The translations under genes were made by a program, and so were the position numbers. The notes below the pieces were generated by a model. That model was given only the letters and a program-made list of their open reading frames with translations, ran no database searches and was not told the origin of the DNA. DNA of 32,180 nucleotides, taken from NCBI GenBank assembly GCA_017541025.1, contig JAFXZY010000030.1, forward strand, positions 1 to 32,180, in the 5' to 3' direction. Below are positions 5,361-30,591 of this stretch, piece after piece (position 1 is the stretch's first letter; each line of letters opens with the position of its first letter). This DNA comes from Bacteroidaceae bacterium (lineage in GTDB: Bacteria > Bacteroidota > Bacteroidia > Bacteroidales > Bacteroidaceae).

Positions 5361-5951
5361 ATGGAAATGAGTGAAAATACGCCACATCCAATAACAATAG
5401 TAAAGAACGCTCAGCAAAAAGCTATCAATATAGGCTTCTGGTGCAGCGTTAGTTTCTTATGTAGCGTACGGGGTATTGCATCTCCCGGCATAGCTACGAT
5501 AGGACATCTTGCCGCAATACTTGCCGTATATAAAATATTGAGGAGCCTTGTAAGATATAGACTGTTCGTAGAAGACATTAAGTTTGGTAAATGCTTACAG
5601 ATGGCATTTCTGATCTGCATCTTTGCAGGTTTGCTGACCAACGTGGTGCAGTACATTTACTTTCAGTTCTTCGACAACGGCTTCTTTCTGTCTTCTTTGG
5701 CAACCATTATGGAATCACCTGAATATCAGCAGATGATTAAGTCGGTTTTCACCGGCATTTCACAGAGCGAACTGAACGCAGCCTTCCAGCAGTTAAACGT
5801 ACCAACGCTGATGACCCAGATTATTTTCATGAATCTTCTGCTGTCTGTACCTGTATCGTTAATTACTGCAGCTTTGGCTGCGTACCCTACCATAAGCAGA
5901 ACAAGCATAAATCAGTCTGAACAAACAATAGAAAAAGAAAAAGAACAATAA
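5361..5951 (+). CDS. DUF4199 integral membrane protein
   Basis: The 196-residue protein has about four hydrophobic segments: roughly residues 24-40, 43-62, 76-100 and 150-172. It ends in a charged tail with a short EKEKE run. Its sequence and position directly ahead of a GT2 glycosyltransferase are typical of Bacteroidetes DUF4199 proteins. No catalytic motif is visible and no function is established. A role beside the neighbouring polyprenyl-phosphate glycosyltransferase is only inferred from conserved adjacency. A second ATG two codons downstream (5367) could be the true start. The gap to the next gene is 2 bp. Confidence 0.8.
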   Translation: MEMSENTPHPITIVKNAQQKAINIGFWCSVSFLCSVRGIASPGIATIGHLAAILAVYKILRSLVRYRLFVEDIKFGKCLQMAFLICIFAGLLTNVVQYIYFQFFDNGFFLSSLATIMESPEYQQMIKSVFTGISQSELNAAFQQLNVPTLMTQIIFMNLLLSVPVSLITAALAAYPTISRTSINQSEQTIEKEKEQ

Positions 5952-9778: not shown

Positions 9779-10467
9779 TAACCTTAACAAAAAAATATGA
9801 GCTACTGACCAAACTTCCGCTGCTGCAAGGACTAAGCGGAAAGGAACTGGCCCACATAGAAAGTGTGATTGGTTTGGAGGTAAATGAGGTACCTTCAATG
9901 AGAAGGCCTCTGATTCGCCAAAACGACCCTTGTACACATCTCATATTTCTGGCTACGGGAACACTGATACGCCAATACCAATCAGACGACGGACTGTTTG
10001 TAACCAAATCCATCATTCAAGCCCCCGCCCTGCTGGAACCTCAAAATTTGTATGGGCTGGACTGTAACTTTAGGTGTTCATACACACCACTTCAGAATGT
10101 CTCCTACATCACTGTAAAAAAGAAAGACGTGATGCAACACCTCATGAAGGTAGAAATCATCAGGATCAATTATTTTAATCTGCTCTCTGCCATTATACAC
10201 AAAAAGGATGCTTTATTGCAACCCATGCGTAACTTAACGGTGAACCAGAAAATTGTGTCTTTCCTGCAAAGGCAGTTTGCCGAATGCGAAGGACAAGGCG
10301 AGATTGCTATTAAAATGACTGACCTTGCCAACTATATTGGCGAGACCCGCTTAAACACATCACGGGCACTGAACCAACTGGCGGAAGAACATATCATAGA
10401 GCTGAAACGCTCGCTGATTGTTATACCAGATGTAAAACTTATAAAGGTTAAAGAGTTAAAAAGTTAA
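9775..10467 (+). CDS. Crp/Fnr family transcriptional regulator
   Basis: A 230-residue cytosolic protein with an N-terminal cyclic-nucleotide-binding-like beta barrel (about 20-120, beginning LPLLQGLSGKELAHIE) and a C-terminal Crp-type winged helix. The recognition region is MTDLANYIGETRLNTSRALNQLAEEHII. No four-cysteine Fnr iron-sulfur cluster is seen, and the effector is unknown. The ATG at 9775 is preferred over an earlier start at 9736 because it gives the ATGA overlap with apbE and a normal family N-terminus. The last codons (KVKELKS, stop) fall inside an 8-bp tandem repeat. Confidence 0.88.
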   Translation: MITLTKKYELLTKLPLLQGLSGKELAHIESVIGLEVNEVPSMRRPLIRQNDPCTHLIFLATGTLIRQYQSDDGLFVTKSIIQAPALLEPQNLYGLDCNFRCSYTPLQNVSYITVKKKDVMQHLMKVEIIRINYFNLLSAIIHKKDALLQPMRNLTVNQKIVSFLQRQFAECEGQGEIAIKMTDLANYIGETRLNTSRALNQLAEEHIIELKRSLIVIPDVKLIKVKELKS

Positions 10468-10470
10468 AAT
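10447..10470 (+). repeat. Octamer array GTTAAARA x3 at the end of the Crp/Fnr gene
   Basis: Three consecutive 8-bp units, GTTAAAGA, GTTAAAAA and GTTAAAAT, cover the last seven codons and the stop codon of the regulator and run into the 22-bp gap before the next gene. The repeat therefore defines the protein's C-terminus (KVKELKS). No hairpin is visible. Confidence 0.7.
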
Positions 10471-15310: not shown

Positions 15311-16183
15311 TCAATAATATAACTTTTGTCCGGCTGCAAGGGTATTCTGCATAAGCATACAGATGGTCATCGGCCCTACTCCACCAGGAACAGGCGTAAT
15401 GTAAGAGCAGAGAGGAGCAACATTATCGAAATCGACATCACCACTCAGACGGAAACCATTTTTACGTGTGGCATCCGGAACACGGGTAGTACCCACATCA
15501 ATAATAGTAGCCCCTGGTTTTACCATATCTGCTGTCACAAAACCAGGTTTTCCAATGGCAGCAATGATAATGTCTGCCTGCAGACACTCTTCCTTGAGTG
15601 TCTTGGAACGACTGTGACAAACGGTAACCGTAGCATCTACGCCCTTCTGCATCATCAGTTGCGACATAGGCTTACCCACAATATTGCTGCGCCCCAGAAT
15701 GACACATTTCTTTCCGTTAGTCTCTACATTGTAGCGACGCAACAACTCCAAAATACCCTTTGGCGTAGCTGAAATAAAGGCAGGCAGACCAATAGCAACA
15801 CGTCCCACATTGATAGGATGGAAACCGTCAACATCCTTACGGTAATCGATGGCCTCTATCACCTTCTGCTCATCAATATGCTTGGGTAAAGGCAACTGGA
15901 CTATGAAGCCGTCTACGTCGGCATCGGAATTTAATTGCGATACACACGAAAGCAGTTCTGCTTCTGATATATTATCCTCAAAACGTAGGAGGGTACTCTT
16001 AAAGCCACAAGCCTCACACGCAAGTACCTTATTCTTTACGTAGGTCTCACTTCCACCATCATGGCCTACCAAAACAGCAGCCAAATGAGGTCGTTTGCCA
16101 CCTGCAGCAACTATAGCTTCAACCTTCTCCTTTATCTCTGCCTTAATAGTAGCAGCAGTCTGTTTTCCATCAATTAGTTCCAT
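15311..16183 (-). CDS. folD: Methylenetetrahydrofolate dehydrogenase/cyclohydrolase FolD
   Basis: A 290-residue bifunctional cytosolic enzyme. It interconverts 5,10-methylene-, 5,10-methenyl- and 10-formyl-tetrahydrofolate using NADP. Family motifs are [14 protein letters not shown] (catalytic Lys in the YxxxK-type motif), [15 protein letters not shown], the Rossmann segment [26 protein letters not shown]-like region and the C-terminal [14 protein letters not shown]. Length is normal. It is downstream of ffh in the same direction, but the heptamer-flanked four-helix-bundle pseudogene now separates the two. No promoter consensus is seen directly ahead of the ATG, so it may depend on read-through from ffh. 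Confidence 0.95.
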
Positions 16184-16192
16184 TTCTTTTCG

Positions 16193-16228
16193 TATTACGG
16201 TTAGCGGTTAGCGGTTAGCGGTTAGCGG
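16193..16228 (+). repeat. Heptamer array TTAGCGG x4 (left arm of the inverted pair)
   Basis: Four perfect TTAGCGG units (16201-16228) follow a degenerate unit (TATTACGG, 16193-16200). The array begins 10 bp ahead of the folD ATG and contains the stop codon and last codons (ANR) of the four-helix-bundle frame, read on the minus strand. It is inverted relative to the array at 16597-16640. Confidence 0.9.
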
Positions 16229-16593
16229 CTTCAAGTTGCTTTTGAAATGATGACCGTAAACCAGATAACTGCTTCCCGATAACATTTATTCTTTCTTTTT
16301 CTTCTGCGAATTCTTTTTCACTGATATATCCTAAATCGAGAGCTATGTCAAGCTGACAAAGTGTTTCGGTTAATGATCCATAAGCGATTTCAAGAAAGCG
16401 AATTTTCTCTTTAACTGATGCGGCCAGATCCTTCTGCAATGTTTGAAGGTACCGACACAACGGCTCTACGAAGTTGGTCGCTCAACGCATATATCTCGCG
16501 ATTAGGAAATTTGTCTATGAAAGAATACACATCCCTAACCAGCAACTTTGCTTCCTTATATCCCCTCAAATCAAAGAATGTAAACTTATCCAT
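16215..16593 (-). pseudogene. Frameshifted four-helix-bundle (23S IVS-type, TIGR02436) protein gene
   Basis: Two overlapping frames together encode one 125-residue four-helix-bundle protein of the 23S rRNA intervening-sequence/Avd-like type. The first part (ATG 16593) reads MDKFTFFDLRGYKEAKLL ... QLRRAVVSVPSNIAEGSGRIS and stops at TAA. The second part continues in the +1 frame as KEKIRFLEIAYGSLTE ... LGYISEKEFAEEKER to the stop at 16215. The conserved NIAEG(S/F)GR and EIAYGSL motifs fall on opposite sides, so a single gene has lost frame (two bases lost or one gained near 16411). The family's function is unclear; relatives occur in 23S rRNA insertions and in diversity-generating retroelements. 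It sits between ffh and folD, framed by inverted heptamer arrays. No rRNA or reverse transcriptase is nearby. Confidence 0.85.
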
Positions 16594-16596
16594 CTT

Positions 16597-16640
16597 CGCT
16601 AACCGCTAACCACTAACCGAGACAACCATTAACCATTAAC
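16597..16640 (-). repeat. Heptamer array GTTAGCG/GTTAATG (right arm of the inverted pair)
   Basis: Read on the minus strand, this is GTTAATG x2, an irregular GTTGTCTCG, GTTAGTG, then GTTAGCG x2, ending 3 bp before the ATG of the four-helix-bundle frame. The GTTAATG units also encode the end of ffh (Val-Asn-Gly-stop). It is the inverted, partly decayed counterpart of the array at 16193-16228. Confidence 0.85.
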
Positions 16641-17972
16641 GGGCATTCTGCCTTTCATCATCTTGGCCATCTGAGCCATTTTGCTGTTATTAGTGACAAG
16701 CTTCATCATTTTACGCGTCTGATCAAACTGCTTAATGAGCTTATTTACCTCCTGAATATTGGTACCAGAACCCTTGGCAAGACGCATACGACGACTGGTA
16801 TTCAAACATTCTGGATTAACACGCTCTTTAGGGGTCATAGAGAGAATGATAGCCTCAATGTTCTTGAAAGCGTTATCATCAATATCAACATCCTTGAGTG
16901 CCTTGCCCACACCAGGAATCATACCAGCAAGATCCTTGAGATTACCCATTTTCTTGATTTGCTGAATCTGAGAATAGAAGTCGTTGAAGTCGAACTGATT
17001 CTTCTGGATCTTCTTCTGCAGGCGACGTGCCTCTTCCTCATCGTACTGCTCTTGGGCACGTTCTACGAGAGATACGATGTCGCCCATACCCAGAATACGA
17101 TCTGCCATACGACTGGGATGGAAGGCATCAATAGCCTCCATCTTCTCACCTGTACCCACAAATTTGATAGGTTTATCTACTACAGTACGGATACTGAGGG
17201 CAGCACCACCACGTGTATCACCATCCAGTTTGGTAAGGATAACACCTGTATAATCAAGACGGTCATTAAATTCCTTGGCCGTGTTTACAGCATCCTGGCC
17301 GGTCATAGCATCAACTACAAAGAGTATTTCATCGGGCTGAACAGCATCACGGATGTCCTGGATCTGCTGCATCAGCTCCTCATCAATAGCCTGACGACCA
17401 GCAGTATCCACTATCAGCACATCATGTGCCTTAGCCTTAGCTTCCTGAATGGCATGACGTGCCACCTCTACTGGATTGGTGGCTCCCATTTCCATATATA
17501 CAGGAACGCCCACCTGCTCACCCAAGACACGCAACTGCTCCATTGCAGCAGGACGGAAGGTATCACAGGCTGCAAGAAGGGGATTCAAATGACGCTTCTC
17601 CTTAAGCATTTTTGCCAATTTACCGCTCATGGTGGTCTTACCGGCACCGTTCAAGCCTGCCATAAGAATAATGGCTGGATGGCCTTTGAGCTGCATGTCG
17701 GTAGTCTCGCCTCCCATAAGGGATGCCAGCTCATCATGCACAATCTTGACCATCAACTGCTGAGGCTTGACAGCCGTGAGCACATTCTGGCCAAGAGCCT
17801 TCTGCTTAACGGTATCGGTAAAGTTCTTGGCTACCTTGTAGTTGACATCGGCATCGAGGAGTGCACGGCGCACATCCTTGAGGGTTTCGGCCACATTGAT
17901 TTCGGTAATTTTACCTTCACCCTTGAGTATCTTAAACGATCTTTCGAGTCTTTCGCTTAAATTTTCAAACAT
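16629..17972 (-). CDS. ffh: Signal recognition particle GTPase Ffh
   Basis: The 447-residue protein binds SRP RNA and signal sequences of nascent chains and delivers ribosomes to FtsY at the membrane. Domain order is an N-terminal helical bundle (1 to about 90), then the GTPase domain with GLNGAGKTT (P-loop, about 108-116), DTAGRQAIDEEL, TKLDGDTRGGAALS and GTGEKMEA. The methionine-rich M domain follows from about 300, with RMRLAKGSGTNIQEVNKLI (RNA-binding helix) near the end. The P-loop has Asn and Ala where Gln and Ser are common (GLQGSGKT), within family variation. The C-terminal PVNG and the stop codon are encoded by the adjacent heptamer array. Its RNA partner lies at 5099-5194. No clear promoter is seen ahead of it. 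Confidence 0.96.
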   Translation of the reverse strand: MFENLSERLERSFKILKGEGKITEINVAETLKDVRRALLDADVNYKVAKNFTDTVKQKALGQNVLTAVKPQQLMVKIVHDELASLMGGETTDMQLKGHPAIILMAGLNGAGKTTMSGKLAKMLKEKRHLNPLLAACDTFRPAAMEQLRVLGEQVGVPVYMEMGATNPVEVARHAIQEAKAKAHDVLIVDTAGRQAIDEELMQQIQDIRDAVQPDEILFVVDAMTGQDAVNTAKEFNDRLDYTGVILTKLDGDTRGGAALSIRTVVDKPIKFVGTGEKMEAIDAFHPSRMADRILGMGDIVSLVERAQEQYDEEEARRLQKKIQKNQFDFNDFYSQIQQIKKMGNLKDLAGMIPGVGKALKDVDIDDNAFKNIEAIILSMTPKERVNPECLNTSRRMRLAKGSGTNIQEVNKLIKQFDQTRKMMKLVTNNSKMAQMAKMMKGRMPVNG

Positions 17973-30573: not shown

Positions 30574-30591
30574 GTCAACTTGTCAACTTGT
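30574..30591. repeat. Octamer repeat GTCAACTT x2 between nqrA and nqrB
   Basis: Two perfect 8-bp units plus a partial third lie in the 48-bp gap between the nqrA stop and nqrB start. It is the only unusual element inside the operon's gaps. No hairpin is formed. Too short to assign a role. Confidence 0.6.

Follow-up and report, generated by a model that had tools for sequence, protein, structure and literature searches.

A gene of the four-helix-bundle family TIGR02436 (S23p, or IVP), lying between ffh and folD and framed by short tandem arrays in opposite orientation, raises the question of how a free-standing member of this family came to occupy an intergenic space, and what part the arrays play in it. 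In the initial annotation of the window (the whole stretch of 32,180 nucleotides that was analysed), the arrays were taken as a possible footprint of a small mobile unit. The features of the locus are collected in Table 1.

Table 1. Features of the ffh-folD locus in the window
Feature	Position	Strand	Basis
Downstream arm, CGGTTAG x4.4 on the + strand	16198..16228	-	TRF
Four-helix-bundle (TIGR02436 / S23p) coding region, frameshifted	16248..16560	-	profile match
Upstream arm, CGCTAAC x3.3 on the + strand	16597..16619	-	TRF
AACCATT x2.4, outer portion of the upstream array	16624..16640	-	TRF
ffh, upstream neighbour, same sense as the four-helix gene	16629..17972	-	
folD, downstream neighbour, same sense as the four-helix gene	15311..16183	-	

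The upstream arm stands directly before the start codon and is an inverted copy of the downstream arm: the two are 23 nt long, 96% complementary and spaced 376 nt apart, which gives an arm score of 20 in the inverted-match scoring used for all loci. The annotated heptamer arrays are therefore real, and so is their overlap with stop codons, as the AACCATT array holds the last codons and the stop of ffh (16629 onwards) and the CGGTTAG array the stop codon of the C-terminal four-helix frame (16215-16217). The gene said to lie between them was confirmed as a family match, but not as an intact gene: the TIGR02436 profile matches the minus strand in two pieces, 16402-16560 with 54.7 bits and 16248-16421 with 44.8 bits, both above the curated cut-off of 24 but in different frames. 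This split means that the gene copy is frameshifted or that the assembly contains an error; the window copy is thus broken or mis-assembled. The element consists of an S23p ORF enclosed by complementary ends and, being placed between ffh and folD, lies outside any 23S rRNA gene. Elsewhere in the window, one-sided short octamer arrays are found at or near gene junctions, at 30574-30591 (GTCAACTT) and 10434-10469 (AAAAGTTA); the former is of the AAGTTGAC type, which serves as arms in sister genomes.

Framing was scored as the best ungapped inverted match between the 250 bp upstream and the 250 bp downstream of the domain, and a locus was regarded as framed at an arm score of 14 or more. In the same-genus sample, inverted short arrays framed 64 of 72 TIGR02436 genes, with a median score of 21. 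This sample comprises 66 sister-genome loci and the six of the window's genome; 25 weak matches (E 8e-9 to 1e-5, frames of 185-271 aa) were excluded, and weak matches in G015:C1 and G011:C6 were retained. Random segment pairs from the same regions reached 14 once in 1653 trials, which was also their highest value (median 8), and the flanks of other ORFs did so in 5 of 244 cases. Pairing left and right flanks taken from different family loci brought 28 of 854 combinations to 14, hence the arms of a locus match each other and do not simply reflect general composition. As regards other cargo, one of the five framed ORFs from outside the family, at L061, sits by its coordinates between two gene-less hairpins.

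The five further gene sites of the window's genome, one of which has an internal stop, all carry inverted arrays (arm scores 14-31), each with a different unit: GGTTATG, an AACGTC type, GGTTAGA, GAGAATT and ATTTACC. Outside the genus, 63 of 80 loci from named genomes scored 14 or more (nearly all Bacteroidales by name, with one labelled Synergistaceae and one 'bacterium P3'), as did 13 of 14 plasmid loci, hand-picked from 41 matching records (eleven cyanobacterial, together with Riemerella, Azospirillum and Gemmatirosa). Of ten loci scored among 16 genomes of other families of the order, five reached the threshold. The family was found in 88 of 118 sampled genomes of the phylum, and 12 of the 30 best-scoring loci of this wider sample reached 14, so that the array pattern is weaker or more decayed there. 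No clear arm pair was found at 25 of the 152 loci of the two main samples and at 18 of the 30 phylum loci. Family genes without clear arms (scores 7-10) include L037, L096, L147, L184 and L208, among other loci. Phage records gave no match to the protein of L001, another copy from the window's own genome.

The elements are roughly 430-500 bp in size and share a simple plan. Among the 268 arms measured, a period of 7 (209 arms) is far more frequent than one of 8 (48 arms), and the number of units per arm peaks at 4.0-4.5 (median 4.1 upstream and 4.3 downstream). They fit closely between neighbouring genes: in 85 of 123 cases the left arm begins at most 15 nt from the end of the upstream stop codon, and in 66 of 110 the next ATG falls in the interval between 5 nt ahead of and 25 nt beyond the end of the right arm. 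The arms enclose a single ORF, usually of about 105-145 aa, which encodes the four-helix protein; no transposase or recombinase gene is present inside the element, and no recombinase, nuclease or reverse transcriptase would fit within the unit. Two candidate regularities were abandoned. Purine richness of the upstream arm exceeded 0.5 in 46/64, 51/63 and 10/13 elements and was dropped as a rule, and the idea that the ORF serves as template for the arms proved too weak (271 own-array 7-mers against a mean of 229.7, with 54 of 2000 permutations as high). Several elements and gene-less hairpins have a small G+C-rich near-palindrome of the GGCTACGCC type on the inner side of their arrays (at about L051:5254-5270, L052:3737-3810, L302:1264-1280 and L166:1740-1760), and downstream of the gene at L059:2431-2592 there are four repeats of a compound unit of ~47 bp, made of a heptamer array and a small hairpin.

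The genes ffh and folD are adjacent in sister genomes. Over 25 loci, the stop-to-start gap between them measures 445 bp in the window's genome; it is 1-59 bp in 14 sister genomes, and five others, with 127-317 bp, lack the family gene on the contigs concerned; at two of the remaining five loci, 46 and 67 bp separate the end of the ffh match from folD. In the genus, G005:C104 and G008 also form a filled/empty pair, with flanks about 90% identical. Cyanobacterial plasmids provide five filled/empty sites (A, B, C, E and F), with flanks up to 97.6% identical. Site A is filled in Trichormus ATCC 29413 pC and Scytonema NIES-4073 and empty in Aulosira NIES-50, N. linckia NIES-25 and N. carneum NIES-2107 (97.3-97.6% identical), where the genes are 13 bp apart; the insertion is accompanied by a duplicated GTAA, which includes the stop codon, and Nostoc C052 has a truncated remnant. 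At site C, pNsp_a of Nostoc ATCC 53789 is filled, five relatives are empty and TTCTA is duplicated. A clear duplication is not visible at sites B, E and F, and at site E the insertion falls within the 3' end of the gene upstream. Target duplication was read at these five plasmid sites, as the intergenic sequence of Bacteroidales is too diverged for it.

Of the two outcomes that would have refuted the initial annotation neither came about: inverted short arrays are enriched around other family members, and empty sites exist among relatives. The short gaps in relatives also bear out its view of the segment as inserted into the ffh-folD pair. Its suggestion that the arrays are the footprint and the ends of a small mobile unit gains from the enrichment and the empty sites; recognition of these ends by a mobility machinery is a weaker point, with no recombinase gene in the element and a duplication at two of the five plasmid sites.

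The annotated plasmid copies adjoin protein genes. Among the annotated cyanobacterial copies, two lie between cas6 and cas4, one between cas10 and cmr3, and one two genes from a TrbI/VirB10 gene; the three within cas operons (L268, L269 and L270) comprise gene and arrays. In the part of PMC3936711 that deals with them, 18 IVP genes are recorded in cas loci, one of them between cmr3 and cmr2, and are listed among CRISPR-Cas-associated functions. The copy between cas10 and cmr3 resembles these genes, and the inverted arrays around it suggest an ordinary insertion.

The repeat unit is the same in both arms of a locus and different among loci, and it follows the protein. Unit similarity correlates with protein identity (Mantel r 0.41, with none of 500 permutations as high), climbing from 0.008 below 30% protein identity to 0.33-0.44 above 70%. 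This test covered those 123 of 152 elements that had an arm score of 14 or more and at least 95 residues, with homologous-flank pairs excluded; of the 152 loci, 90 stand alone and 62 group into 25 clusters of orthologous sites. Some sites are occupied by distant family members in different species, e.g. one common to G005:C104 and G010:C101, where the two proteins are 22% identical.

These observations bear on the possibility that the arrays are pre-existing landing sites and that the gene inserts into the middle of a heptamer array or hairpin. Heptamer arrays are indeed frequent between genes (65 of period 7 in 316 kb of the window's genome), and at some orthologous sites (L177, L162 and L061) a hairpin or a one-sided array of another unit replaces the gene; in the ffh-folD gap of G005 and G008, too, a one-sided array or a gene-less hairpin stands in its place. 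However, several empty sites are free of any array (plasmid sites A, B, C and F, L331 and L332 at site E, and G008 compared with G005:C104), the unit follows the lineage of the protein even where sites are not homologous, and the swapped flanks of different loci seldom match. We therefore regard landing sites as an unlikely origin of the arrays.

The searched loci also contained 29 short hairpins in which the inverted arrays enclose no gene. For the 22 found in the genus, unit similarity to gene copies of the same genome was 0.43, compared with 0.07 for other genomes (none of 2000 label permutations was as high), and ten had a same-genome match above 0.3, several of them close to such a copy; since the test draws on regions around the gene, part of this signal may reflect local copying. 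At site D of the Nostoc plasmids, the hairpins share the arm type and differ in their loops. The polarity of gene-less hairpins was discarded as a character, for it is meaningless in a hairpin that reads alike from both strands. Hairpins with nine-base repeats, of the CACGAATT type and TGCAACATT, were also encountered without the family gene (L085:9505-9581, L086:597-718 and 5400-5481, L087:265-551) and are possibly another class of array-ended element.

Array density rises with the copy number of the gene. Over 14 genomes of the genus, Spearman's coefficient was 0.65 (p 0.013), with copy numbers assigned from the same-genus search and four genomes of other families (G026, G031, G032, G039) kept outside the correlation; G000 was represented by its gene-bearing contigs, with arrays less than 600 bp from the gene excluded, and G005 was omitted because its sampled contigs are tiny, with 18% GC. 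There are exceptions: G002 and G013 have 2.5 and 4.0 arrays per 100 kb with 4-5 copies, and G006 has 6.4 without a strong copy. Samples of 62-100 kb from genus genomes lacking a strong copy were, in three of four cases, free of intergenic arrays with a 7-8 bp unit at a distance from the gene. In G005, the first four contigs (L295-L298) are 2-3 kb long with 18% GC and look foreign to that genome.

At some orthologous sites the two arms differ together in their unit, as with GATTAAA in G013 and GATTAGG in G008; the proteins at such sites are 48-78% identical. The 14 site pairs considered for joint change were picked by eye, and the arms had been selected by similarity. Replication slippage and template switching are known processes, and the arrays could be their by-products: slippage would create the tandem repeats, template switching at hairpins would make the arms alike, and the presence of the gene would be accidental. 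A concerted change of both arms is what these processes would give, and they may help to keep the arms alike. As a full account of the arrays we consider them very improbable, given that family genes are framed so much more often than other ORFs of the same regions, that a period of 7-8 dominates, and that arrays were absent from most of the sampled genus genomes that lack a strong copy.

Most elements are read in the sense of their neighbours. With the orientation of the upstream and downstream genes expressed relative to the four-helix gene, the counts are 55 ++, 7 +-, 4 -+ and 1 -- for the genus loci (n=67) and 45 ++, 19 +-, 8 -- and 4 -+ for the named set (n=76). This bias suggests tolerance or selection at the RNA level; antisense copies exist, in two plasmid records as well, therefore the sense orientation is not obligatory. 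The arrays might be an RNA-processing or regulatory device only, either an RNase III stem or a site for S23p on its own message, with the gene spreading by general recombination. The bias itself and the position between stop and start codons are in line with this, as is the predicted RNA of the window element, in which the arms pair around the ORF (z -4.5 in the folding computation). So is the published excision of a 23S rRNA intervening sequence (IVS) by RNase III, as described in the relevant section of PMC4990558. On the other hand, the insertions are compact, array-bounded and placed between conserved genes, gene-less hairpins with the same arms occur, and a few copies run antisense to their neighbours. 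An exclusively RNA-based role is thus, in our opinion, a minority prospect, although a more serious one than landing sites.

What the protein might contribute can be judged from its relatives. The AlphaFold2 model of L001, which stood in for the broken window copy, has four long helices (pLDDT 94.4), and its sequence matches 2gsc with an E value of 5e-19. This structure and another solved relative, 2rld, contain five chains each, and the S23p protein of Xanthomonas is presented in PMC4990558, in the passage on its structure, as a homopentameric ring; one of the two five-chain structures is of this protein. The same article, where it treats the Coxiella IVS, notes no sign of S23p production in vivo and deems the RNA the more relevant part. 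In the elements described here, selection on the four-helix ORF is purifying (15 of 20 pairs yielded a dN/dS value, within 0.01-0.11, with dS saturated in several), a point in favour of the protein in these elements.

Based on these observations, we suggest that the window segment is probably a frameshifted copy of a small mobile element composed of an array, an S23p/IVP ORF and an inverted array; for the pairing of the arms, the action of the ring and an enzyme in trans we infer the following steps. The element would comprise a left array of ~4 heptamers or octamers, a single S23p/IVP ORF and an inverted right array. The arms of the transcript would form a stem of ~28 bp whose loop holds the ORF, an arrangement known from 23S rRNA intervening sequences, and an RNase III-type enzyme might cut this stem out, so that the operon would tolerate the element. 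The five-membered S23p ring may grip the tandem repeats and thereby define the ends. Five contacts of such a ring would span four spacings, which is proposed as the reason why arms have about four units, and the grip would hold the two arms to one repeat and link that repeat to the protein. Strand transfer would be carried out by some enzyme acting in trans, and the short gene-less hairpins with the same repeats would be non-autonomous relatives. Weighing against this reading are the lack of a recombinase gene, the plasmid sites where no duplication could be made out, the antisense copies, the loci with no clear arms, the genomes in which array density and copy number diverge, the many copies that keep an orthologous site across species, the Coxiella result, and the seldom paired heptamers of Nostoc PCC 7120 discussed below.

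The closest known counterparts are the IVSs of 23S rRNA. As set out in the sections of PMC4990558 that concern them, they carry an S23p ORF, measure 428-444 nt in one case, and have complementary ends that form a 28-bp stem removed by RNase III; one IVS has three tandem heptamers and a degenerate fourth immediately ahead of the start codon of S23p, in a number that varies among strains. The same sections cite earlier proposals in which IVSs figure as mobile elements or as what transposition has left behind. The elements studied here share with IVSs the protein family, a similar size and complementary ends, and the tandem heptamers recall those reported in that one IVS arm. Unlike IVSs, they are found between protein-coding genes and mostly share their orientation, are present in several copies per genome and have units that vary by locus.

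With the heptameric intergenic repeats of other bacteria the elements have in common the tandem heptamers between genes. In the portions of PMC4692102 that bear on this, Rehm et al. describe GGGAATC in Xanthomonas, mostly as four units and with 70 and 75 inverted pairs in two genomes, and GGGGA(C/T)T in Nostoc, where the heptamers of PCC 7120 are seldom paired and none is on plasmids; the same portions state that the repeats are generally not found with mobile elements. TAACTGA repeats occur in Beggiatoaceae, Cyanobacteria and some Bacteroidetes, and some loci have array-free relatives, according to the corresponding part of PMC4679880. The terms 'S23' and 'four helix' are absent from the main texts of PMC4692102 and PMC4679880.

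Miniature inverted-repeat transposable elements (MITEs) and insertion sequences resemble the present elements in their inverted ends, their presence or absence at intergenic sites and their short gene-less relatives. They differ in that the ends here are locus-variable tandem arrays, no transposase gene is carried and a target duplication was seen at two of five sites. Diversity-generating retroelements are a further point of comparison, as their Avd accessory proteins have a four-helix-bundle ring fold. A plasmid avd gene matches the family weakly (E 9e-4); unlike those retroelements, the element described here is too small to hold a reverse transcriptase. A literature search, with bioRxiv and most subscription journals outside its scope, returned no publication connecting heptamer arrays with free-standing S23p genes. 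The S23p intervening sequence itself is already known; what is new here is to see it as an intercistronic mobile unit.

Going beyond the window, we tentatively put forward a class of mobile elements whose ends are tandem arrays read by an internally encoded five-fold ring. Recognition by counting repeats would let the end code drift to new heptamers, the protein and both arms changing together, and the IVSs of 23S rRNA, the heptamer repeats seen in cyanobacteria, xanthomonads and Beggiatoaceae, and IVP genes within cas operons would all be its products. So wide a generalization is a conceivable outcome, on which we would place less than even chances.

The mobile-element reading of the window segment joins three puzzles, i.e. 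the purpose of the S23p/IVP family, the origin of intergenic heptamers and the spread of 23S rRNA IVSs. It predicts that each S23p protein favours its own repeat, and it cautions that some operons, those of CRISPR included, may be carrying their IVP gene as a passenger. A gene as common as this one in the sampled genomes of the phylum probably belongs to a mobile unit without a known mobility enzyme.
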